From NCBI RefSeq assembly GCF_013394305.1, contig NZ_AP019810.1, positions 2,296,001 through 2,360,000 on the forward strand: a stretch of 64,000 bases of DNA, given 5' to 3'. Made by a program: the position numbers and the translations under genes. Source of the stretch: Enterococcus mundtii. GTDB taxonomy: Bacteria; Bacillota; Bacilli; Lactobacillales; Enterococcaceae. This document shows, in pieces, positions 1-12,264 of the stretch; the stretch's first letter is position 1; each line of letters starts with the position of its first letter. The notes below the pieces were generated by a model that had not been told where the DNA came from, ran no database searches, and was given only the letters and a program-made list of their open reading frames with translations.

Positions 1-596
1 TCGTGATCGCGATCGCGTTGATTTGTTACCCAGAAATCTTGATTGCAGATGAACCAACGACAGCCTTAGATGTGACGATCCAAGCACAGATTTTAGAGTT
101 GTTGAAAAAAATCCAATCAAAAATCGACACGTCGATCATTTTTATCACCCATGATCTTGGTGTCGTAGCGAATGTCGCTGATCGAGTAGCAGTGATGTAC
201 GGTGGAAAAATCATTGAAGTGGGGACATCTGAAGAGATTTTTTACAATCCACAGCATCCGTATACATGGGGCTTACTTGGCTCTATGCCTACATTGGAAA
301 GTGGCAATGACCGCTTATATGCAATCCCAGGTTCTCCACCGGATTTATTGAATCCGCCAAAAGGTGATGCCTTCTATCCACGAAATGAATTTGCATTGAA
401 AATCGATGCGGAACAAGCACCACCGTTTTTCGAACTATCACCAACACACCAAGCAGCTACTTGGCTATTAGCCCCACAAGCTCCAAAAGTGACACCGCCA
501 GAAGAGATTCAACGGCGCTGGGCGATTTTTCAAGAAAAGCAAAAAGCACATGGCCAAGGGGGATTGAACAATGAACAAAAAACTGCTCGAGGTTAA
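1..596 (+). CDS. oppD: Oligopeptide ABC transporter ATP-binding protein OppD, C-terminal part (cut by window edge)
   Basis: The reading frame is open from base 3, so the N-terminus with Walker A lies to the left of the window. What remains starts just before the Walker B/D-loop stretch [11 protein letters not shown] and the H-loop (IFITHDLG). It ends with the C-terminal extension of the Opp/Dpp ATPases, which carries [12 protein letters not shown] and GSPPDL. In this family the protein couples ATP hydrolysis in the cytoplasm to oligopeptide import through OppB/OppC. The last 26 nt overlap the start of oppF, so the two are translationally coupled. OppD rather than OppF is chosen because a second, complete Opp-type ATPase follows, which is the usual D-F order. 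The family call is secure; the peptide substrate is not visible. Confidence 0.93.
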
Positions 597-1524
597 AGGC
601 TTAAAACAGTATTTTAATGTAGGAAAGAAAAATGAAGTCCATGCGGTGAATGATATCAGTTTTCACATCTATGAAGGAGAAACATTCGGCTTAGTTGGCG
701 AATCTGGTAGTGGAAAGTCAACCACAGGTCGAACGATCATCCGTTTGAATGAACCAACGGGTGGCGAGATCTTATTTGATGGGCAAGATGTGACGAAATT
801 AAAAGGCAAACAAGCCATGACAAAGTTTCGTCATGAAGTCCAAATGATTTTCCAAGATCCATATGCTTCATTAAATCCAAGAATGAAAGTACGAGATATT
901 ATTGCAGAAGGAATCGATGTCAACGGACTAGCTAAATCACCCGAAGAACGTGCAGAAAAAGTCAACGAGTTACTAAAAACAGTTGGCTTAAATCCCAGCC
1001 ATGGCACACGCTATCCTCATGAATTTTCAGGGGGACAACGCCAACGGATCGGGATTGCACGAGCATTAGCAGTCAATCCGAAGTTTATCATTTGTGATGA
1101 ACCAATCTCTGCTTTAGACGTATCGATCCAAGCCCAAGTGGTCAATCTTTTACAAGATTTACAAAAAGAGCAAGGATTGACTTACTTGTTTATCGCGCAC
1201 GATCTATCCATGGTGAAACATATCAGTGACCGTATTGGTGTGATGCACAATGGCTTGTTGCTTGAGATGGGAACCAGTGAAGAAATCTATAATCATGGAG
1301 TGCACCCATATACGGAAAGCTTACTATCAGCGATCCCATTGCCTGACCCTGATCATGAACGCCAACGTCGCCGGATCAAGTATCAACCTGAACCAGATGA
1401 TGGACAAATCCGCACGTTAAGAGAAATTGCTCCTGAACATTTTGTATATGCAACAGAACAAGAAGTTGCTTATTATGCGAAAAAATTAAAACGGCAGAAA
1501 GAAGCCTTGCTAGTCGCAAACTAG
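571..1524 (+). CDS. oppF: Oligopeptide ABC transporter ATP-binding protein OppF
   Basis: Complete 317-aa ATPase, normal length for OppF. Walker [10 protein letters not shown] is at about residues 43-51, the signature FSGGQRQR at about 151-158, Walker B FIICDEP at about 172-178, and the H-loop IAHDLS follows. The C-terminal [16 protein letters not shown] block is typical of OppF/DppF. It pairs with OppD to energise uptake of peptides bound by an extracellular OppA lipoprotein. It overlaps oppD by 26 nt and is followed after only 11 nt by the TnpB-like gene, so all three are probably on one transcript. Sensing of peptide pheromones is a known role of Opp systems in enterococci, but nothing in the sequence assigns it here. 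Confidence 0.95.
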
Positions 1525-1535
1525 GGGAGAAGCCG

Positions 1536-2543
1536 ATGCTAAAAGCCTTTAAATTTCGAATCTATCCCACTGATTCACAAAAACAGTGGTTGATCCAAAC
1601 ATTTGGTTGTGTGCGTTTCACTTACAATCATTTATTAAAAGCCAGACAGGCGTATTATTTAGAAACACAAGCGATCGATTATACGCTGACACCAGCTTCT
1701 TTAAAAAAGCAATATCCGTTTTTAAAAGAAGTCGATAGTTTAGCCTTAGCGAATGCCCAATTAAACTTGGATCGTGCATTTCGTAATTATTTTAAAGGAC
1801 GCGCAAGCTTCCCCAAACTAAAAAATAAAAAAAGTATTTGGCAGTCGTATACGACGAATAATCAAAAAGGAACAATCTATTTAGAAGAAACATACCTCAA
1901 ATTGCCAAAGCTAAAAGAGAAAATTCGCATCCATGCCCATCGTCCGATTGAAGGAACGATTCGTTCAGCAACGATCTCATCTCGATACAACGAGATCTTT
2001 TATGTCTCCTTGCTCTGTGAAGTTCCCCAAAAGACGATGAAAGCGTCAAATAAATGGATCGGGATAGCCTATGATCCAGATCGTCTAGTGGAGATGTCCA
2101 CACCACTTGACATCACGATTCCTAAATTCAAACAAGTTGATCAACAACTTCTGCGGGCAAAGAGAAAGCTTGTGATCAAAGGACGATCAGCACAGCATCG
2201 ACGCACACGCGTTGAAAGAGTAAAAAATTATCAAAAGCAAAAAAGGAAAATCAAAGACCTTTATTTAAAACAAAAATTTCAACGAGAAGACTATTTAGAA
2301 CAAATTTCAGGAACAGTGATCCGTCATTATGATTATTTGTTTGTCGAATCGATTTCAGCAGATTGTCCGGAAGGTGATTTTTCTATCCAAGACTGGCATA
2401 AGCTATTAGCAAAGCTCCAATATAAATCGCAATGGTATAGCAAAAAGTTAGTATTGATCGATATGAAAGAACAAACAGATCCTTCCACAAATAAAAAGAG
2501 TCTGGAATTAGTTGAAATCGGGAAACAAGTCCTTTTTGAATAA
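1536..2543 (+). CDS. tldR: TldR-type nuclease-dead TnpB homologue (putative RNA-guided repressor), oppF-associated
   Basis: The 335-aa protein opens like TnpB/OrfB: MLKAFKFRIYPT, then a helix-turn-helix region with FTYNHLLKAR. It keeps the overall TnpB layout through LQYKSQWYSKKLV. The nuclease is broken. The RuvC-I motif that should read GID reads GIA (Ala178), so the catalytic Asp is gone. The RuvC-II Glu (Glu271, in FVESIS) remains. After LVLIDM the zinc-ribbon CxxC pairs and the RuvC-III Asp are missing, and the protein simply ends, 40-70 residues shorter than usual TnpB. The frame is intact, with a good ribosome site (GGGGAG, 6 nt before ATG), and the gene sits 11 nt behind oppF. No tnpA and no transposon ends flank it. 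Nuclease-dead TnpBs retained next to oppF in enterococci are known as TldR: they bind a guide RNA made from their 3' region and repress a promoter. The same role is inferred here, probably on opp expression. A decaying transposase is the alternative, but an open frame with selectively lost catalytic residues argues against it. Confidence 0.88.
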   Translation: MLKAFKFRIYPTDSQKQWLIQTFGCVRFTYNHLLKARQAYYLETQAIDYTLTPASLKKQYPFLKEVDSLALANAQLNLDRAFRNYFKGRASFPKLKNKKSIWQSYTTNNQKGTIYLEETYLKLPKLKEKIRIHAHRPIEGTIRSATISSRYNEIFYVSLLCEVPQKTMKASNKWIGIAYDPDRLVEMSTPLDITIPKFKQVDQQLLRAKRKLVIKGRSAQHRRTRVERVKNYQKQKRKIKDLYLKQKFQREDYLEQISGTVIRHYDYLFVESISADCPEGDFSIQDWHKLLAKLQYKSQWYSKKLVLIDMKEQTDPSTNKKSLELVEIGKQVLFE

Positions 2544-2600
2544 AAAAACTGGTAGGGGCGCCAGGGTTCGCCTTGCTAATAAAAAACATCTATTGTTTTT
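2480..2600 (+). ncRNA. Candidate TldR guide RNA (scaffold plus guide) at the 3' end of the TnpB-like gene
   Basis: TnpB omega-RNAs and TldR guide RNAs overlap the 3' end of the protein gene and continue just beyond it, with the guide at the RNA's 3' end. Right after the stop codon here is a short G+C-rich block in otherwise A/T-rich sequence: CTGG (2549-2552) can pair with CCAG (2561-2564), and GGCG (2557-2560) with CGCC (2569-2572), which would give a stem and pseudoknot-like fold. A/T-rich sequence starting TTGCTAATAAA follows, and the guide would be expected there. The boundaries and the guide cannot be fixed by eye. The presumed target, the opp promoter, lies outside the window. Confidence 0.45.
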
Positions 2601-2650
2601 GTTTCTAGGAATTTCTTTCAGAGAAGCTCACTAATTATGACAAACCAAAA

Positions 2651-2686
2651 AAGAGGAGAAGAGCATGAATGCTCTTCTCCTTTCAG
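2651..2686 (+). terminator. Intrinsic terminator of the opp-tldR transcript
   Basis: Perfect 13-bp inverted repeat (2654-2666 with 2669-2681, loop GA) built on AGGAGAAGAGCAT, preceded by an A-run and followed by only a short T-run. It would stop transcripts running through oppF, the TnpB-like gene and its guide RNA. Confidence 0.7.
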
Positions 2687-2690
2687 ACTG

Positions 2691-2753
2691 TAGACAAAAG
2701 CATCAGTTTCCTCTTTACTAAGAGTGTAGACTAATACTTTTGTCTATTTTTGT
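2691..2753 (+). terminator. Second hairpin with T-run (TAGACAAAAG/CTTTTGTCTA)
   Basis: The arms TAGACAAAAG (2691-2700) and CTTTTGTCTA (2737-2746) pair perfectly and are followed by a run of T. The sequence CAGACTGTAGACAAA at its start recurs in another terminator-like hairpin at about 10,668, on the other side of the giant gene. Confidence 0.5.
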
Positions 2754-2769
2754 ATAATAAAAGATATGG

Positions 2770-3356
2770 GCTCTTTGTCAATAAGGACTGATGAGTTGCG
2801 AAAAACTAAATCTGAGTCAGAACAAACCTCATTCTGACTCAGATTTTGTGTTATCTAACTTTGATTAATTGATTGGTCAAAAAGATTCTAATTTTCATAT
2901 TCTCAAATGATTTAAATCCGTAGGATACTCGTTTCATTGTTTTTATGTGGGTATTCTTTGCTTCTATTTTTCCATTGGAGTAAGGATAAATCATCGCATT
3001 GCCGATGCCTTCTTCGTAGATCAGAAGGTTTTGAAGTTTCTCACGAAATCCTTCATCTAATGTTTCGGGAAGTTCTGCCAATAAGGAGAAAAGCAAGTCA
3101 GGATCTTTGTCTCGAAAAGCTTCAACTAATTCATGGAAAACGGGATACGCCTCCTTTAGGGGCGTGGAAAAGCTAAGCAATCGATCAATCATCATTGCTT
3201 CAGTAAGAAATGGGTATTTAGGTGCTCGGAAACTTTTCCATGTTTTATATTCATAGTGGTTAATGTTTGCACGATTTTTTAGCAGAAAGCGCCAGTTCTT
3301 TTTCAGTTTTTCTGCATGGCTTTTCTGTTCTACTTTACGTTGCTCATTCATTTGAT
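2770..3356. mobile_element. Truncated ISL3-family element
   Basis: The left end, GGCTCTTTGTCAATAAGG, and the following 580 bases match the left end and transposase 3' part of the complete ISL3 copy at 14,947-16,460, with scattered differences. The homology stops near 3,356, so the other end and two thirds of the transposase are missing. This is an older, decayed copy. Confidence 0.85.
2851..3351 (-). pseudogene. ISL3 transposase, C-terminal fragment
   Basis: The 166-residue frame is nearly identical to the last part of the 431-aa transposase at 15,029-16,324 (shared AEKLKKNWRFLLKNRANIN and the ending FLTNQLIKVR against FLINQLIKVR). The N-terminal zinc-binding and helix-turn-helix region is absent, as is most of the DDE core. 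The ATG at its start is fortuitous, so this is a dead fragment. Confidence 0.85.
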
Positions 3357-3474
3357 TGTTTGGACAGCATTATACATTCCTCCTCAAAAAGCGAACGTTT
3401 TTTTTTAATTGTAATAAAAAAACTGTAGTCTGAGTTTTCTTTTTTAGTGTATTTTTTGAAGTTTGTATTATATG

Positions 3475-3561
3475 ATACAAAAAAGAGTGATTAGGAGGTG
3501 CTTTTTGTTGACTACATATAAATAAACTATCTATCTTATTAATTAACGAGGAGTGAAAGAG
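3475..3561 (+). promoter_or_regulatory. Leader region of the giant toxin-like gene
   Basis: A strong ribosome site (TTAGGAGGTG, 3491-3500) precedes a TTG at 3508 that opens a five-codon frame (M T T Y K, stop at 3523). The TTGACT of that frame could instead be a -35 box. The real gene start is served by GAGGAG at about 3548-3553. No convincing -10 could be chosen. Confidence 0.3.
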
Positions 3562-6500
3562 ATGCCAAAGTTACCAGAAGATGCTCATAGAGAAAAAATT
3601 GGGAATAATTACAACAAACGGAATGATGAACATCCGCCAGGAACGGACCAAAAGATTTTAACCTATCTAGCCAATCACAGGGGGCAAACGCTGATACGCA
3701 ATGGTGTATGGACATTTACTGGATTGGTTTATCTAGCCACTATTTTTCAAAATTTTCGGCCAGTAGATCCTCCCGAACAACATCCGGTTATAAAAAAAGA
3801 CTCGCCAGCATTTGAAGTCACTACACGAGTTGACGTGAGAAGAGAGGGGAATCAGGCAAGGATTCACTCCTTTGTTTCCACCTCCACCATCAATCGTGCT
3901 CGAATCCATTCCTTGAATCCAAACCATGCGATATCCCATTCGGATACAGACAAACTTTCTTATGACAATCAGACGTTTGCTAATACGACATCCATGGATC
4001 TATCACCGTACGTTGATCTCGCGAAGATGGTGCATGAACGAAGTCTTTCTTTGTACCGACGGAGGCATAAGATTCATCAACTGATCAATTGTACCACCAC
4101 GAGAAGGACAGATCAGGTAAACACATGGATCGTCACAGGAACAAGTGTGGAACAAACGCGATTGACCACTATTTGCCAAGAAGCGATTACTCGATCGAAT
4201 GCGCAAAATGAGCAAAAGAAACAAGAGAGGGAGAATTCTACACACTCTTCTCACCATAAGAATGATTCAAAAACTCAAGATTTTCCTTATTTTTCTGCAC
4301 AAGAGTCGGCTCAAAAACTAAGTGAAGCCATCCGAACCACCTTTGAAACCAAATATAATGGCACAACAGATGCCCCAACGAATGTACATAGACCAATCCC
4401 AGCCACGTTTTGGAAGGGATTAACGGAGCGATTTTACCAGATCTTTCACCAATACGAGAATACGAGCTACACCCAAGAACAAAAAGACACAAGTGGTGGG
4501 TCAGTGCTGTCGCAGTTTGTGAATTTATTGTTGCGTACTTTTTCGATAGATTATGAGGAAGAGCTATCTAGTGATTTCCATTTAGAAAAGGATCAACAGT
4601 TACCGATGAATGTGTACTCCACGAAAGACTCGCATCCATCCAAGATTTCACCAAAAAAATCAAGGGAGGAAAAACAGGCGCAGGATCCTCAGGAAACAGC
4701 TTCAGAGGAAGTGACAGGCACACCACCAGAAGGTGAATCTGTACTATCTCCTGAAAAAGTGAGTTTCTTCACGCAACTTTGGGATCTAGTAGAAGATTTT
4801 TGTGAAAAAGTAGGGAGCTTTGATATTTTCCCAACATTTGGGGTGGAAGCAATGCCCCTTCCTGTTAGCACTGAAACAACTCTCGAAGACAGTTCGGTGA
4901 ATGCGACAGCTATTCCTACGGAAGTACTTGGATTAAATGTGACAACAGCTGGAGAATTTGACACCACCCAAGAGCAAGAGATCAATGAAAAAATCCAAGC
5001 ATTTTTGCGTGAAAATAGAGCTGATCCAGCAAAGGAAATAATTCAAGAAGAACAGGAAACACCTCTTCCAATGTGGAATAAGGAACAAAAAGAGGACATA
5101 AATAAAAAGCTGACTCATTTTTTCACGGAAAAAGGAATTGCTTGTCAAGAAAATGCTGAGGAATTAATGGAGACAGTCGGTGAGTGGGTACTTCTTGAAG
5201 GTGCAGCGCCACCAACGTTGGATATGGTGAAAGTTAAACAAATTGCAAAACTGATCTTGGAAATGAGCGAAGAGACAGTGATTTCAGAGGAACAAGCCGG
5301 TCTAACGGTCGGGACATGGATCTATGAAACAGTGAAGGACAACCAATCTGTGGCTTTAAATCTTGTTGTGGAAACGACTAAACAACCAGAAGGAACCAGT
5401 ACGCCCCACCCCACAAGAACAGAAAACCAACCTGTGGCTTTAAATCTTGTTGTGGAAACGACTAAACAACCAGAAGGAATCAGTACGCCCCACCCCACAA
5501 GGACAGAAAACCAAAAAAATAACAGCGAAACTGATGGAATTCAATGGCGTGACCCTAATGTGCGAAAACAAATGGAAGCATTTTTTCAAGAAAAGGAATT
5601 ATTACCAAATCAGCCAACCAAAGAACAAATATTGATCGCCTTAGGAAAATGGATCATCAAAGAAGAAAATAACAAATTCGTCTTCAATTATAAAAGAATT
5701 CAAGCAGTAGCAAAAGTGATTATAAAAGGATTGAAGCTTTATGATATAAAAGGAAAGGAAAAGATTTCAAACAAAGATGCCGAATTAACTGTCATGAAAT
5801 GGGCCTTTGAAACGATATTAGGAAGTTCGATTGAAGCTTATATAGTCAAAACCTTAGTGTCGGCTCCTGATGTAGAGCAATTTACCATAGGTCGATTGAG
5901 AGATTTATTCACTGCCAGAAACTTAGAAAAAGAGGGATTAATTCAGTTAGATACGCCTACCCTTTCTCAAGAACAGAAAAGAGTCTTTAACAAATTATGG
6001 AATTTGTTACTTCATAAAGAGCTACCAAATTATTTTCTAGATAGCAGTGGTTTAGCGGATCACTTATTGATTTCTGATTATCAATCATTGATGCAGCTGA
6101 CAGGAGCACAAATTTTAAATGAGAGTGGGTACCCACAGGCATTCAGTCAAGAAGATAGTTGGTTGATGGGGCAACATTTCTGGGAAACGATCCTTGAAAA
6201 AGGCGTGACCAGCTATGAAGAATTCCGTCAACTTCTAATGCCTTCTTTGCTTGCGGTCGCCCAACTAGAACCAAATCTATTACGAGAGGCATTGGCTACG
6301 GACACCTACAAAGAAGTGGCAATCAGTACCTTTATTGGATATCAACAAGAAGGTTATTATAAGCTAGTCGAAAATCAAGAACTCCTCAGTCAATTGTATA
6401 AAGCTTATCAAAAAGTCTTTCTTCAATGGCGTCGAAAAAAAGCATTAGCTATAACTGTGGCACAGACTTGTCGCGACAAAGGTTCCCTCATTTCATTTCA

Positions 6501-9500
6501 TGTGATTAAACAAAATTATCTTATAGGTTCAGAAGATCCTTGTCCAGATATTGACTGGATTCCAGAGAAATTAGAAACTAGTTATGTTAAATTGACGAAA
6601 AATGTAGCAGATACGTATTTGCCACTGAATAAAAAACTGATAGAGTTTGCATTACTCGCCTTCGACAAAGAGGAAAGAGCGTTTATTTTCTCAGAAGGAA
6701 CTCAGCTATATGAGGCAAATGCCGAGTTGACAAATGAAAGTGACTATATGGCTGAAGTGCCAGTCGCAAGTGTGGCTCTGAAGATGTATCAGTTGCTTTC
6801 TATGAAGAAGAAACAGAGAACGATTCTAAATCTAGACAAAACCGATCTGTTTGTAGCGGACAACGAAAAGGAAAAACGTTGGTATGCCCTGAAGCAGTTG
6901 GCTGGCGAAGGAGGTTATCGTTTTTATCGTGTTGATCAAGATCCTCTATTATACCTCAAATTTGGGTTATTTGATCAGAAAAACCTTTGGAAAAATGGGT
7001 ATAAGAAAGAAGGAAATGAGATTCGGATCGGGGATAAACTTTTTACATTTTCTACTCGTATGAATTGGAGTAAAAAATTATCCCATGGAGTTGAGACAAC
7101 TCCATTCATTGAAGCACTTAGTCGTAAACATAGTGATCAACTGTATCAACAATTGTATGATTCGGGAGACGACAAAGCGGATCTCGAAAAAGCTTTGGAG
7201 GTCGTCAAGCATTTTATTCCTTTTTATGATTGTGTGACAGGGAGCATTAATCAAGACACAGAAGGAGCAATTGTTTCTTGTACGATTGATGCCTTACTCA
7301 TGATTCCGGTACTCGGTCAAGTCACTTCCCTCAATATGAAATTTACATTAGGTGCGGCTCGAGCGTTTGCCAGTAGAGGAATTCGCAACGCCATCAGAAG
7401 TGGTAAAAGTTTCCTACCAACAGCGGCCGAGACCAGAAGACTTGCGTTAACTCTTGCACAAACGATTGATCCAGGATTTGAGACCATTGTAGGTGGAGGA
7501 CGATGGATCATTAGAAAAGTAGTGCAGTTCAAAAATGAACTTCGTGTGGGTAAAAAGACGAGAGAAATGTTAGAAAGAGTCGAAGCGTGGGAGAAGAAGC
7601 AAAAAGCGTGGGAGAAATCAATCGAGATCGTTCAGTTAAATGGTCTGGAAGTACCAGTGAGAAAAGTGAATGCTCATTTGTATATGCGCGTGACGAATCT
7701 AGAAACTGCAGAGGTGTTTGGCGGCTTGTTTATGAAAAAGGGGGATCGCTTAGAGCCCTATAGACCCGCTACATTTACGAATGAACAACTCAACTTGATT
7801 AACCTCTTGGAGGTGAAGTTGGATGAAAATCAGATCTTTGTCGTGGAAGATAATTTAAATCCTCAAGCCTATGGTATAGGAAAGATCACAACTGTAGCAA
7901 AAGAAGGTGAAGAAACGAAGCGTTGTATTGAAATGAAGGAGAAATTGATTGAAGTGACCATGACAGTCATCAAAAAGCATGGAATCCGATTAGATGTTTA
8001 TGATCGTCATGAAGGAAAAATGTTACCAGTGAATTTTAACGGGATGGAATGGTATTTTGAAGAAGCAACGTCTACTTTCATATCAAAATCCGTAGAGGAA
8101 AAAATCGCTGGGATGTTAGATAAGTTTGAAACACTAAAAGATCCAAGTGGACTTTCTGCTCCGTATGGAAAGGGGATGATGTGGAATGAATCAGGCAGAT
8201 CCTACATCAAGATCAATAATCATTACATTCCGTTGATCGCATTGGATAAAAATAGCAATCGGTATCATTTAGTGAAAAAGGAATACAATGAACCGATGAC
8301 GATTTTGATATTTGATGAAAAAAAAGGCAAGTTTCGTTTTGAGACAGATTCGGAAAGAGCGAAGGTAGAAGCAATTGAACAAACAAGTAAGAAAGAAAAA
8401 CCTCATAAGTTAGAGGCTTTACAGCATAAAAGAAAAACCACTTCAGGTGAATCAAGAGTGTCGCAAGGAGAGACACCGGGCACCTCAGGTACTTCAAGCA
8501 CAAGTTCTCACGATAAAAGGGTTAAAATGGGCACATTGGTTGGTCAAGTGGAAAATAATGATATTCCCAAATCCGCGGGAAAATATGATTTATGGAGTAA
8601 ACTTAGAGAAGCAGAGCTTTCTAAAGGTGTAATTCCAAGAATAGAAGATCCTAATGTTCGACTTGCACCGTTAACTGAATTTGTTTCAGATTTGCCTAAT
8701 AAATATCATTTTAGTGACGAGGAAATAAGACAGAGTATTTTGAAAACAATTAAAGTGAACTTGCCGCCCAATTCTACTTTTAAAACAGTGGCAGGAGTTA
8801 CTTCTGATAAAGTGCCAGACTTTCTCAAACCGTTTGTTCAAGATATGGAATATGGTCTTGAACAATTAATGGATTTTGCAGATTCTGGAATAGCCATATT
8901 TGAAAAATTATTGCTTGACAAAACTACTGAAAAAGTTGAGCTTAATAAAGCCGTGGCAAACGCTGAGGTTGAAAACGCTGTGGCAAAAGCTGTAGTTAAC
9001 GATGCTGTGGCAAAAGTTCAGCTTGCAGAATCTCCGCTTGACAAAGCTATTGCACAAGCAGAGCTAGAAGAAGTTATGGCAAAAGCAGAGCAGGCACAAT
9101 TTGAACTTGACAAAGCGATTGAACTAGTTAAGTTTGATCAAACTCTTTCACAATCTAAGGAAGGGAAATATTTAATAAAATTATTTTCAATAGGTGAGAC
9201 TCCTAGCCAAGAACTCATCATAACAGAAACGATTAAAAGACTGTTGAATAGGTTGAAAAAAATCAAAAACTTCTATAAGCAATCAAAGGAATGGGACTAT
9301 GAAAATATTTTGCTCGTTTGGAGTGATTCATTCACCAAGAAAGAAGGATTAGATGTTTATGTATCAACAGCTGATATAAATATTCCGAAAGCAGAGGTTT
9401 TTCCAGTTGATGGAGAATGTCGGGTCATTATTTATGCAGATAGTTTTCATTTGGATCCTCAAAAATTTCCAGAATATGAGCTAACAGCAAGACCTTCTTC

Positions 9501-10317
9501 AGTGCTCTTTCATGAAGGATCACATCTTGTTTCAAATACAAACGATCTGGCAGTTCAATATTATTCTCCAAGAGGGACGGAATTGACTACAGTACAAGCA
9601 ATAAACCGGTTTTACGAGGAATTAAAAAACATAGTAAATGTAGATTCTAAACCTTTCGGTGTTTTTGTGGATCATTTAGCGAAAGAATTGAATTTACCTA
9701 CCTTATCCAAGTCTGAGGTTATAAGGAGAATGTGTGAAGATGATGTGTTGCTTTATAATTTTTTATTGACAGATGCAGAATTCTTTACAATGATTTTAAG
9801 GGACATTATCGAAGGAAGAGAGGTGGATGAAATCGTTCGTGTCCCAAGAAGTACAGATAATAAAAAAATGAAACTAAAATTTCTGTTCCTCTATACGGCA
9901 ATGGCTTATCTGTCTAGAAATTCAAATTTAGAGGTAAATCATCAGTTAAACCAAATGAAAGAACAGACCACAACAAAAGTAATGGATAATGTAAGTACAG
10001 ATATCCCAAGTAAAGAAATGCCGAAAGAAACAAGAATGCCTGTACACACGGAATCTTTAAAAATACTAAAATATAAAGCAAAAGATATGTTGAAAAAGGA
10101 AGTCTCAGACCTTCTAACGGCTAGTATGATAAAAAGTAATAACAGTACAACTGAATATATTATAAAAGAACAAGGAGTAATGAGCCCAACACACCCTTCA
10201 TTGACTTTAAGTTTCTCGAACCTTGTAACTAGTAGTATTGAAAAAAGTAATAAACTTCGACAAAATGTCTCGAAGAGACGAACAAACCATCTGCAAGAAG
10301 TAACTCCACAATATTAA
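3562..10317 (+). CDS. Giant toxin-like protein with C-terminal HExxH metallopeptidase domain
   Basis: About 2,251 aa from the ATG at 3562. GAGGAG lies 8 nt before this ATG, whereas the upstream GTG at 3553 overlaps the ribosome site. Layout: a polar N-terminus; a weakly hydrophobic helix at about 48-63; a Ser/Thr/Pro-rich, low-complexity region to about 470; two imperfect helical repeats of about 90 aa; an exact-looking 28-aa duplication at about 594-649; a long helical region; and a hydrophobic stretch at about 1217-1255 (FIPFYDCV, then ALLMIPVLGQV) of the kind seen in large toxins between delivery and effector parts. Next come a Ser/Thr/Gly linker near 1640-1655, an Ala/Lys/Glu-rich coiled coil at about 1792-1860, and HEGSH at 1984-1988 with an Asp at 1995 (NTND). 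HExxH plus a downstream Asp fits a zinc protease of the aspzincin type. The last third looks more A/T-rich than the rest. No immunity gene or standard secretion signal is evident. A secreted or cell-associated protein toxin is inferred; the target is unknown. Confidence 0.75.
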   Translation: MPKLPEDAHREKIGNNYNKRNDEHPPGTDQKILTYLANHRGQTLIRNGVWTFTGLVYLATIFQNFRPVDPPEQHPVIKKDSPAFEVTTRVDVRREGNQARIHSFVSTSTINRARIHSLNPNHAISHSDTDKLSYDNQTFANTTSMDLSPYVDLAKMVHERSLSLYRRRHKIHQLINCTTTRRTDQVNTWIVTGTSVEQTRLTTICQEAITRSNAQNEQKKQERENSTHSSHHKNDSKTQDFPYFSAQESAQKLSEAIRTTFETKYNGTTDAPTNVHRPIPATFWKGLTERFYQIFHQYENTSYTQEQKDTSGGSVLSQFVNLLLRTFSIDYEEELSSDFHLEKDQQLPMNVYSTKDSHPSKISPKKSREEKQAQDPQETASEEVTGTPPEGESVLSPEKVSFFTQLWDLVEDFCEKVGSFDIFPTFGVEAMPLPVSTETTLEDSSVNATAIPTEVLGLNVTTAGEFDTTQEQEINEKIQAFLRENRADPAKEIIQEEQETPLPMWNKEQKEDINKKLTHFFTEKGIACQENAEELMETVGEWVLLEGAAPPTLDMVKVKQIAKLILEMSEETVISEEQAGLTVGTWIYETVKDNQSVALNLVVETTKQPEGTSTPHPTRTENQPVALNLVVETTKQPEGISTPHPTRTENQKNNSETDGIQWRDPNVRKQMEAFFQEKELLPNQPTKEQILIALGKWIIKEENNKFVFNYKRIQAVAKVIIKGLKLYDIKGKEKISNKDAELTVMKWAFETILGSSIEAYIVKTLVSAPDVEQFTIGRLRDLFTARNLEKEGLIQLDTPTLSQEQKRVFNKLWNLLLHKELPNYFLDSSGLADHLLISDYQSLMQLTGAQILNESGYPQAFSQEDSWLMGQHFWETILEKGVTSYEEFRQLLMPSLLAVAQLEPNLLREALATDTYKEVAISTFIGYQQEGYYKLVENQELLSQLYKAYQKVFLQWRRKKALAITVAQTCRDKGSLISFHVIKQNYLIGSEDPCPDIDWIPEKLETSYVKLTKNVADTYLPLNKKLIEFALLAFDKEERAFIFSEGTQLYEANAELTNESDYMAEVPVASVALKMYQLLSMKKKQRTILNLDKTDLFVADNEKEKRWYALKQLAGEGGYRFYRVDQDPLLYLKFGLFDQKNLWKNGYKKEGNEIRIGDKLFTFSTRMNWSKKLSHGVETTPFIEALSRKHSDQLYQQLYDSGDDKADLEKALEVVKHFIPFYDCVTGSINQDTEGAIVSCTIDALLMIPVLGQVTSLNMKFTLGAARAFASRGIRNAIRSGKSFLPTAAETRRLALTLAQTIDPGFETIVGGGRWIIRKVVQFKNELRVGKKTREMLERVEAWEKKQKAWEKSIEIVQLNGLEVPVRKVNAHLYMRVTNLETAEVFGGLFMKKGDRLEPYRPATFTNEQLNLINLLEVKLDENQIFVVEDNLNPQAYGIGKITTVAKEGEETKRCIEMKEKLIEVTMTVIKKHGIRLDVYDRHEGKMLPVNFNGMEWYFEEATSTFISKSVEEKIAGMLDKFETLKDPSGLSAPYGKGMMWNESGRSYIKINNHYIPLIALDKNSNRYHLVKKEYNEPMTILIFDEKKGKFRFETDSERAKVEAIEQTSKKEKPHKLEALQHKRKTTSGESRVSQGETPGTSGTSSTSSHDKRVKMGTLVGQVENNDIPKSAGKYDLWSKLREAELSKGVIPRIEDPNVRLAPLTEFVSDLPNKYHFSDEEIRQSILKTIKVNLPPNSTFKTVAGVTSDKVPDFLKPFVQDMEYGLEQLMDFADSGIAIFEKLLLDKTTEKVELNKAVANAEVENAVAKAVVNDAVAKVQLAESPLDKAIAQAELEEVMAKAEQAQFELDKAIELVKFDQTLSQSKEGKYLIKLFSIGETPSQELIITETIKRLLNRLKKIKNFYKQSKEWDYENILLVWSDSFTKKEGLDVYVSTADINIPKAEVFPVDGECRVIIYADSFHLDPQKFPEYELTARPSSVLFHEGSHLVSNTNDLAVQYYSPRGTELTTVQAINRFYEELKNIVNVDSKPFGVFVDHLAKELNLPTLSKSEVIRRMCEDDVLLYNFLLTDAEFFTMILRDIIEGREVDEIVRVPRSTDNKKMKLKFLFLYTAMAYLSRNSNLEVNHQLNQMKEQTTTKVMDNVSTDIPSKEMPKETRMPVHTESLKILKYKAKDMLKKEVSDLLTASMIKSNNSTTEYIIKEQGVMSPTHPSLTLSFSNLVTSSIEKSNKLRQNVSKRRTNHLQEVTPQY
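5341..5508 (+). repeat. Tandem 84-bp duplication inside the giant gene
   Basis: Two in-frame 84-bp copies (5341-5424 and 5425-5508) encode 28-aa units beginning NQSVALNLVV and NQPVALNLVV, differing at only a few bases. They lie in the linker between the two helical repeats. Near-identity indicates a recent duplication. Confidence 0.9.
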
Positions 10318-10443
10318 TTCAAGTAGGTCATTCAAAAATATATGGGCTTGGTATAATAAACTAAACAAAAAATTAAGGAGGAGTGATGGACGAGTTATAT
10401 TAAAGTAGACACCAAGTTAAGAGAGTTTGTGGGGGAAATTACT

Positions 10444-10551
10444 ATGAAACATGGACCATTTACACAAGAATTCAAACGATAAGCGGTTTTATTCATCTTG
10501 GATGAAGGACTACCTGTCCAAATTGTTTCAAAAAATTGGAAGTCCATCCTC
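10444..10551 (+). pseudogene. IS3-family OrfA fragment
   Basis: The frame starts at ATG 10444 and reads MKHGPFTQEFKR, a stop, then AVLFILDEGLPVQIVSKNW. This matches the N-terminus of IS3-group OrfA proteins (a pattern like FKREAVQLVLEEGLSV). The in-frame stop and the loss of everything after about 35 codons show a dead remnant. A possible IS end (TAAAGTAGACACC) lies about 40 nt upstream. Confidence 0.6.
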
Positions 10552-10667
10552 ACAAAATTAACTTATCTTTTTGTTCATAAAAGTCTTGCCAGTTCCCCCT
10601 TCATATTTAAATGAAAAAGGCTCGAGTAATGAAAAGCAACTCCCACAAATAGGAACCAAACATAATC

Positions 10668-10712
10668 AGACTGTAGACAAAGAAAAAATTTCTTTGTTCT
10701 ACAGTTTTTTTG
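10668..10712 (+). terminator. Terminator-like hairpin (ACTGTAGACAAAG/CTTTGTTCTACAGT)
   Basis: A 13-bp stem with one bulged T is followed by seven T residues. It shares CAGACTGTAGACAAA with the hairpin at 2,686. It may be the terminator of the giant gene or of a lost IS. Confidence 0.6.
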
Positions 10713-10794
10713 TTATTGACTTTAGTCAGTTTCGTTCGCGTAGCGTACGAAATAAAAAAACCGCGCGTTTCTATGCGTGGACGAAATAGCTTTA

Positions 10795-11442
10795 GCGATA
10801 AAAAACTCCTTTCGATATACTAATAGTGGCTACCAACCGCATATCAGATTGAAAGGAGTTTTTTTATGTCTAACAATGATAAAAGTTTAGCACATACAAG
10901 ATGGAATTGTAAGTATCACATAGTATTCATCCCGAAGTATCGACGAAAAGTGATTTATGGAAAGTTAAGAGTAAGTATTGGTCAGATATTAAGAAAATTG
11001 TGTGAGATGAAAGATGTTGAAATCATTGGAGCACATGCAATGCCTGACCATATTCATATGTTAGTAAGAATACCGCCAAAGATTAGTATTTCTAGTTTTA
11101 TGGGCTACTTAAAAGGACGAAGTGCAACTTTAATCCATGAAAAACATGCGAATTTGAAATATAAGTATGGGAATAAAAGCTTTTGGTCCAAAGGATACTA
11201 CGTGAGTACGGTTGGGTTAAATCAAAAAACAATTGAAAAATATATTCGAGAACAAGAAGCAGATGATCGAATTAGAGATAGTATAAGTAAACAAGAGTAT
11301 GTAGATCCATTTAAATAGTTAAAGAGAGATAGAGCTGTGAGCGAGCGGTTGGTGGTTATTTAAAAAGCCCCTTTTAAGGGGCTAGCGAGTGGTGAGCCCT
11401 TCTAGAGCTGTTAAAAAGCCACCCGTTTTCACGGGTGGATAT
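10795..11442. mobile_element. Solo IS200-type element (IS200/IS605 superfamily)
   Basis: About 650 bp. The 5' part forms the long stem AAAACTCCTTTC/GAAAGGAGTTTT just before tnpA, the classic IS200 hairpin that shields the tnpA start. The 3' end carries the hairpin CCACCCG-TTTT-CACGGGTGG (11,419-11,437). There is no tnpB, and the right end abuts the stop codon of the Nudix gene. Exact cleavage sites are not determined. Confidence 0.8.
10866..11318 (+). CDS. tnpA: IS200-type Y1 transposase TnpA
   Basis: 150 aa, the standard size. It carries the HUH metal motif in DHIHMLV (about residues 61-67) and the C-terminal helix TIEKYIREQE that carries the catalytic tyrosine. The family moves single-stranded copies by a 5'-phosphotyrosine mechanism. 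The AGGAG ribosome site is buried in the preceding stem, which in IS200 keeps expression very low. The frame is intact, so the element may be active. Whether this kind of TnpA ever served the TnpB ancestor of the gene at 1,536 cannot be said. Confidence 0.93.
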   Translation: MSNNDKSLAHTRWNCKYHIVFIPKYRRKVIYGKLRVSIGQILRKLCEMKDVEIIGAHAMPDHIHMLVRIPPKISISSFMGYLKGRSATLIHEKHANLKYKYGNKSFWSKGYYVSTVGLNQKTIEKYIREQEADDRIRDSISKQEYVDPFK

Positions 11443-12264
11443 TTACTCTGTATGTCCAGGTTTTAATTGATAGATCTTTGAGGGACGTCCGATACCGACA
11501 GGACGTTCACCGATTTCATCGAAGTATTGTAACATAGCTTTTTTGAAATTGGAATGATCGATCATTTTAAAATCGATCCCTAAGAATTTAGCGAATACTT
11601 TGCGTGCTTCAGTGATCGTGAAGTCTTTTCCTAGCACTTGAAGCACTTGGGGTTCATGTTCCATTTTGTTGACGACACGGTTGAAGGCTTTGACAATGAT
11701 CTCGCTATGGTCAAAAGCTAATGTGTCTTTGCCAGAAGACTCGCTCGTCGTCAAGTCTAGAGTGATTGCTACATCCCCACTCGATAAATGCAGTTTGTTT
11801 GCATTGCGTTCAAGTGAAAACCACTGCACTTCTTTGGCATCGTCTCCAGCGATCAAAGGTTCTTCACCGATAAAGGCGAGATAGCTGACTGTCACGACCC
11901 AGCCACGAGGATCACGATTCGGTGTACTGAAGGTATGCAGTTGTTCAATATTTTCTTCGGATATGATGACGCCTGTTTCTTCTTTTGTTTCTCGCAATAC
12001 GCTGGCACCAGTCGATTCATTTTTTTGGACGAATCCTCCGGGAAGTGCCCAAGAATTTCGGTAAGGATGGCTTTTACGTTGGATAAGTAAAACTTTTAAT
12101 TGATCTTCTTCTTTGTTGTAGCAGAGTAAAACGATATCGACGGTCAAGGAAGGTTTTTCATATTCAGGACGTTCTTGGTCTTGGTACCAAGATAAGAAAT
12201 CAGTTTCAGAGGCCTCTTGTTCATAATATGTTTTTTCTTCTTCTTTTGAATGAAAATGTTCCAC
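11443..12264 (-). CDS. NrtR-like Nudix protein with winged-helix domain (transcription regulator)
   Basis: 273 aa from a GTG with AGGAGGTG upstream. The Nudix domain (about 40-180) holds the box GGFVQKNES followed by RETKEETGV, so the catalytic Glu residues are present. The C-terminal part (about 190-273) resembles the winged helix of NrtR-type regulators (GRPSKIYQLKPG at the end). NrtR proteins control NAD or sugar-nucleotide genes by sensing ADP-ribose-like ligands. The conserved Nudix box suggests hydrolysis may also be retained. No obvious target gene is adjacent. An IS200 element sits directly behind its stop codon. Confidence 0.8.
   Translation of the reverse strand: MEHFHSKEEEKTYYEQEASETDFLSWYQDQERPEYEKPSLTVDIVLLCYNKEEDQLKVLLIQRKSHPYRNSWALPGGFVQKNESTGASVLRETKEETGVIISEENIEQLHTFSTPNRDPRGWVVTVSYLAFIGEEPLIAGDDAKEVQWFSLERNANKLHLSSGDVAITLDLTTSESSGKDTLAFDHSEIIVKAFNRVVNKMEHEPQVLQVLGKDFTITEARKVFAKFLGIDFKMIDHSNFKKAMLQYFDEIGERPVGIGRPSKIYQLKPGHTE

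Follow-up and report, generated by a model that had tools for sequence, protein, structure and literature searches.

In Enterococcus, a class of TldR proteins associated with oppF was reportedly described in 2024 by Wiegand et al. (Nature 631:439); these proteins are said to be derived from TnpB, to be nuclease-dead, to have a guide RNA encoded downstream and to target a promoter. The TnpB nucleases of the IS200/IS605 type carry a D-E-D active site together with a zinc ribbon. A second kind of TldR is fliC-associated and phage-borne, and according to an excerpt of the source, which mentions neither oppF nor Enterococcus, it represses host flagellin and works with 6-nt guides (PMC13418256). The window analyzed here, i.e., the whole 64,000-nt stretch of Enterococcus mundtii DNA, contains a tnpB-like gene behind oppF, for which a sequence-only reading had proposed a TldR-type function, probably directed at its own opp operon. 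The features of the locus are collected in Table 1.

Table 1. Coordinates of the features at the tldR locus (window positions unless a genome is given)
Feature	Position	Strand	Basis or remark
oppD, 3' part (window starts inside the gene)	3..596	+	full-length ORF in L046 9505-10596
oppF, ATPase of oligopeptide importer	571..1524	+	ABC_tran and oligo_HPY domains
tldR, nuclease-dead TnpB homolog, 335 aa	1536..2543	+	ORF, Pfam, NCBIfam, structure matches, alignment
Guide RNA scaffold with pseudoknot (first loop pairs with GCTC before guide)	2547..2631	+	
Guide TAATTATGACAAACCA, 16 nt assumed	2632..2647	+	start by analogy with intact TnpB elements
Guide seed TAATTAT	2632-2638	+	
12-bp inverted repeat past guide, probable terminator	2654..2681	+	terminator scan
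ISL3-type transposase fragment	2851-3351	-	Pfam
IS200-type tnpA	10866-11318		by-eye naming
Candidate target in oppA promoter	G000:C1:2291258-2291269		4.7 kb before window

The tldR gene and its relatives

The intact TnpB-like gene of 335 codons that the sequence-only reading had placed directly behind oppF was recovered: its reading frame is uninterrupted, it starts 11 nt past the oppF stop codon, and its product matches the Pfam profile HTH_OrfB_IS605 (E 1.6e-17), the NCBIfam profile guided_TnpB (153 bits, cut-off 100) and solved TnpB structures (E 2.4e-27). In an alignment with intact TnpBs of the same bacterial family, the RuvC-I Asp is replaced by Ala178, the RuvC-II Glu271 is retained, and neither a zinc ribbon nor RuvC-III was found in the window protein, as that reading had claimed for the RuvC-I substitution and for both losses. 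The protein therefore lacks the intact D-E-D active site and the zinc ribbon of the IS200/IS605 nuclease, and it shares with TldR proteins both the homology to TnpB and the inactivated RuvC site.

Matches to tldR at E <= 1e-30 were detected in 14 of 16 genomes of the genus and in 79 of 106 genomes of the family, transposon TnpBs being counted in the latter figure. Two sets of loci were compared, i.e., set 1 (60 loci, L046-L105; 59 rows remain once the intact TnpB L105 is set aside) and set 2 (20 loci with longer homologs, L146-L165, 19 from one other genus and one from a third). An oppF gene (75.9-100% identity) is found at most about 0.6 kb upstream of tldR in 46 of the 60 set-1 loci (one of them, L104, has a broken tldR), while four loci have a diverged oppF (52-53%) and ten have none. 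All 20 set-2 loci have oppF (about 75-81%) upstream within about 0.6 kb, with a wider oppF-tldR gap of about 60-570 nt. The alignment with TnpB proposed by the sequence-only reading found the RuvC-I Asp in none of the 59 set-1 rows: the residue is A in 27, S in 7, V in 6, H in 5, R in 5, T in 4 and I in 2, and N, Y or M in the rest. At RuvC-II, 36 rows have E, 21 another residue and two a gap, and a C-terminal CxxC or DxDxN was detected in 0/59. The set-2 proteins (356-375 aa) have Thr or Ser at RuvC-I in 19/20 and the motif C(I/V)E at RuvC-II in 20/20; a single C-terminal CxxC is present in 12/20, and most keep a remnant tail like 'DPETAASI'. From their sequences, the set-2 proteins look like an earlier stage of nuclease loss, an order that we infer. 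In a tree, a single branch sets off each of three groups, set 1, set 2 and five TnpB rows, from the remainder; the tree is unrooted because these TnpBs are too few, and one or two origins are both compatible with it.

In comparisons with the three nearest relatives, tldR has dN/dS values of 0.06, 0.14 and 0.09; two further close pairs gave 0.11 and 0.02, and at larger distances dS is saturated. The gene is thus under purifying selection. We regard it as extremely unlikely that tldR is a decaying transposon-derived TnpB with no present function. Such decay would account for the loss of the active site and the C-terminus, and for the few relatives in which tldR is truncated (L086, L104) or the guide RNA is missing (L097, L103), but it is at odds with the purifying selection, with a guide RNA conserved with compensatory changes, and with a target whose presence or absence follows linked tldR, as described below.

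The claim that no tnpA or IS ends surround the gene held for the gene itself, which is stably linked to a non-transposon gene with no transposon around it, and failed for its neighborhood, in which two transposase genes were found (Table 1). A stretch at about 2681-11450, directly past the guide RNA terminator, is not present in the close relative G007; it holds both of these genes and a 2254-aa ORF with no confident Pfam match. The IS fragments near tldR are confined to this recent insertion. Over 8.7 kb, the opp-tldR region (host genome 3.3 Mb) is 97.5% identical to that of E. mundtii Pe161.

The guide RNA and its relation to Ref70

A guide RNA with scaffold (2547-2647 overall) lies adjacent to tldR on its downstream side; the sequence-only reading had not pointed it out. 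The scaffolds of intact TnpB elements in the same genomes end in GTTCAC, and the start of the guide was therefore placed at 2632 by analogy. The inverted repeat past the guide was scored by the terminator scan on the minus strand only, because the plus-strand T tract is short in this genome. The sequence AACTGG...CTCAC followed by TAATTAT was found behind tldR in 55 of 60 set-1 and 20 of 20 set-2 loci, and guide positions 1-7 are identical in all 75 loci with a guide RNA (of 80; L052 carries one that was left out of the coordinate list). The 55 set-1 guides hardly vary at positions 12-15 (AACC), which are unpaired with the oppA or dtpT sites described below.

Among 31 aligned set-1 RNAs (of the 55), the pseudoknot is 97.6% paired, and two of its pairs show changes on both sides. 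In covariation score, the structure tested surpassed all 500 shuffles and the slid versions; the count of pairs changed on both sides, taken alone, was reached by 113 of 500 shuffles and so is not unusual, and for a consensus fold without the pseudoknot the covariation term is almost nil. Folding of the single RNA gave a modest gain over shuffles (z -1.9).

The window guide RNA also matches the Rfam family Ref70 (RF02841) at 2543-2643 with 32.6 bits (E 0.0048), below the cut-off of 115. That cut-off was exceeded by 9 of 10 set-2 loci tested, at 117-141 bits, and was reached by 0/10 set-1 loci tested; matches below it were obtained in 15 of 16 loci L030-L045 (E <= 1) and in 5 of 13 genus loci (E <= 0.1). 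The end of the Ref70 consensus, CUAAUUAUUAg, is the start of the set-2 guide. From these matches and this guide start we conclude that Ref70 is the set-2 guide RNA, and by sequence the window guide RNA is its homolog.

Sites at the oppA promoter and elsewhere

The oppA promoter consists of TTGCAA, a 17-nt spacer and TAAACT, assigned by eye as -35 and -10 (a consensus scan found none), and the spacer contains TTTAA followed by TAATTAT (L046 5251-5279). TTTAA was deduced as the TAM from the recurrent site, in agreement with the TAM reported for this class. The sequence TTTAATAATTA occurs within 110 bp of oppA, between -35 and -10, in 44 of the 46 set-1 loci with oppA; of the two exceptions, L064 is truncated by the end of the retrieved sequence, and in L068, which has oppA genes in tandem, the first of them carries the site. 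In set 2, TTTAA+TAATTA is found on the opposite strand, after the -10, in 20/20 loci. The site was absent from the 160 bp before oppA in 14/14 orthologs from genomes without a detected oppF-linked tldR; one of these genomes, G003, belongs to the window's genus, and five (G018, G021, G025, G029, G033) hold other TnpB-like matches, assumed to be transposon copies. Among oppA paralogs unlinked to tldR, the site is present in 1 of 12 from tldR-bearing genomes and in 0 of 2 from a genome without tldR. The one exception, L177 (G057:C1:1966311-1967963), has it at -102 on the opposite strand and is a possible further target in trans. In shuffled oppA promoters (11 of the 46 loci) the site arose in 0.5% per window. 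Fisher's test for co-occurrence of site and linked tldR gave 7e-12, a value overstated owing to shared ancestry; the contrast is sharpest for G003 within its genus and for G022, with both tldR and site, within genus g3. By sequence, the own opp operon thus emerged as the likely target, as the sequence-only reading had anticipated.

The contiguous guide-target match is 7 nt in 31 set-1 loci and 6 nt in 12, and in set 2 it is 8 nt in 18 loci, 7 in one and 9 in one; in this genome TTTAA is followed by 7 matching nt. TTTAATAATTAT occurs 8 times genome-wide, vs 6 times for the reversed word, and TAM plus seed alone is therefore not selective. It is quite improbable, in our judgment, that the RNA acts as an sRNA (Ref70) on messenger RNA, or that the promoter motif belongs to another regulator, with a different role for the protein. 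The Rfam entry does describe an sRNA, the seed is short and AT-rich, and CodY-like repeats lie nearby; against this, the RNA is similar in scaffold and pseudoknot to the 3' RNA of TnpB elements, and the promoter motif combines the TAM with the first bases of the guide and is missing where linked tldR is missing.

Searches for longer matches yielded no conserved full-length target. With TAM plus 15 nt of guide and <= 3 mismatches, the own genome gave, besides the guide RNA, a single partial site; with <= 2 mismatches in 106 family genomes, the matches listed numbered 77 (6 of them guide RNAs) vs about 104 for the reversed word, and a recurrent pair (G048, G051) falls inside coding sequence. Exact words shared between guide and opp region were scattered, TAATTAT among them.

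Outside opp, the site recurs upstream of dtpT, a gene identified by eye as encoding a di/tripeptide importer of the POT type. Of the 16 genus genomes, 13 have it there, in a conserved 14-bp block surrounded by variable sequence; it is missing in G003 and G009, both without tldR, and in G015, which has tldR. In other genera it is present in 6 of 20 genomes with dtpT and absent from 14, about 0.055 being expected from shuffles, while control windows further upstream (coding and intergenic pooled) gave 0/57 and the reversed word 0/20. Given these counts within and outside the genus, the dtpT site is recurrent but far from universal. In four genera, among them that of the window, the distance from the site to dtpT is 160-260 bp.

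In 4/4 loci where a second opp operon is accompanied by a tldR of its own, the site stands immediately before the -35 of that operon. The L097 tldR lacks a guide RNA, and no site was found at the related oppA that follows it. Orphan tldR loci adjoin the genes bordering opp in the genome of the window; in 8/8 of them no site was found in the 400 bp before tldR, and six of the eight keep the guide RNA. L076, L078, L084, L087 and L089 have an orphan tldR and a guide RNA, and the opp operon does not occupy its usual position there.

Three further observations concern neighboring or additional sites. TAM and seed occur about 10 bp before an amino-acid permease gene (by-eye naming) in the own genome (L109 1501-1512). 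TAM plus 9 nt of guide precede a TetR-type regulator and an ABC exporter (L106 1501-1512); this site, seen in four of the 16 genus genomes and confined to the E. mundtii group, is retained as a lead. Inverted repeats close to the starts of oppA (L046 5281-5330) and dtpT (L220) resemble the CodY motif, which suggests shared nutrient control of the two genes.

Proposed mechanism and comparison with known systems

The dead TnpB, the adjacent guide RNA with scaffold, the promoter site beside a TAM and their co-occurrence across genomes identify the window protein, as far as sequence allows, as a TldR, in agreement with the earlier assignment. We consider it highly likely that it represses transcription under RNA guidance in the manner of TldR proteins, exerting feedback on its own opp operon. 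Transcription of opp would continue past oppF and cover tldR and the guide RNA, the 11-nt gap leaving no room for a promoter in this genome, which forms part of the feedback reading; a separate tldR promoter is possible in set 2, with its wider gap. The dead TnpB-like protein would bind the guide RNA, and a seed of 6-9 nt beside TTTAA would direct the complex to the oppA promoter, where, bound between -35 and -10, it would block RNA polymerase and provide negative feedback on peptide import. The opp operon is thus most likely turned down by TldR, and perhaps a second peptide importer as well. Several findings weigh against the TldR reading: the contiguous match is just 6-7 nt in set 1 and 7-9 nt in set 2, TAM plus seed shows no enrichment over the reversed word in the genome, conserved guide positions 12-15 find no partner in the target, orphan tldR genes have no target at their own promoter, an unlinked oppA paralog carries the site in one of 12 cases, and shared descent inflates the co-occurrence.

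Very improbable, to our mind, is an action of the complex other than simple repression, either tuning of start-site choice at the oppA promoter or a main effect elsewhere, e.g., at dtpT. The set-2 site after the -10 on the other strand and the distance of the dtpT sites from their gene would fit such an action, but the set-1 site lies in the spacer between -35 and -10, where occupancy should block polymerase. The repressor reading may extend to a peptide-import regulon, in which the same TAM and seed would serve opp in cis, dtpT in trans and the second opp operon through a paralogous tldR, with Ref70 as the guide RNA; we give this extension an even chance. Equally balanced is our view that, with sites varying in strand and position between genera, the RNA guide may have taken the evolutionary course of a classical regulator whose operators are short.

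A literature search on Ref70, which included term searches of PMC7724050 and PMC3166299, listed no paper on its function. The Rfam entry lines for RF02841 (Ref70, Enterococcus sRNA 70) class it as an sRNA and state no function; it is the same RNA as the set-2 guide RNA, and set-1 copies score under the cut-off. A catalogued sRNA would thereby gain a role, and dtpT is predicted as a second target. The findings support the view that nutrient uptake in Enterococcaceae is widely regulated by a native repressor guided by RNA, and with set 2 keeping remnants of zinc ribbon and RuvC-III, the two types show differing degrees of nuclease loss.

The oppF-TldR class is reportedly already published, and the dtpT sites and the second opp operon with tldR are apparently additional; our literature search listed no paper on oppF-TldR. 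The window locus shares with the oppF-TldR of Enterococcus, as reported, the oppF neighbor, the dead TnpB, the downstream guide RNA and the promoter target. With IS200/IS605-type TnpB it shares homology along residues 1-310 and a similar scaffold, but it lacks the catalytic Asp residues, the zinc ribbon and the transposon. The fliC TldR, as portrayed in the excerpt of PMC13418256, is alike in its dead TnpB, guide RNA, 6-nt seed beside a TAM and action at a promoter; it is phage-borne and acts on host flagellin, whereas the window TldR is chromosomal and points at peptide import.
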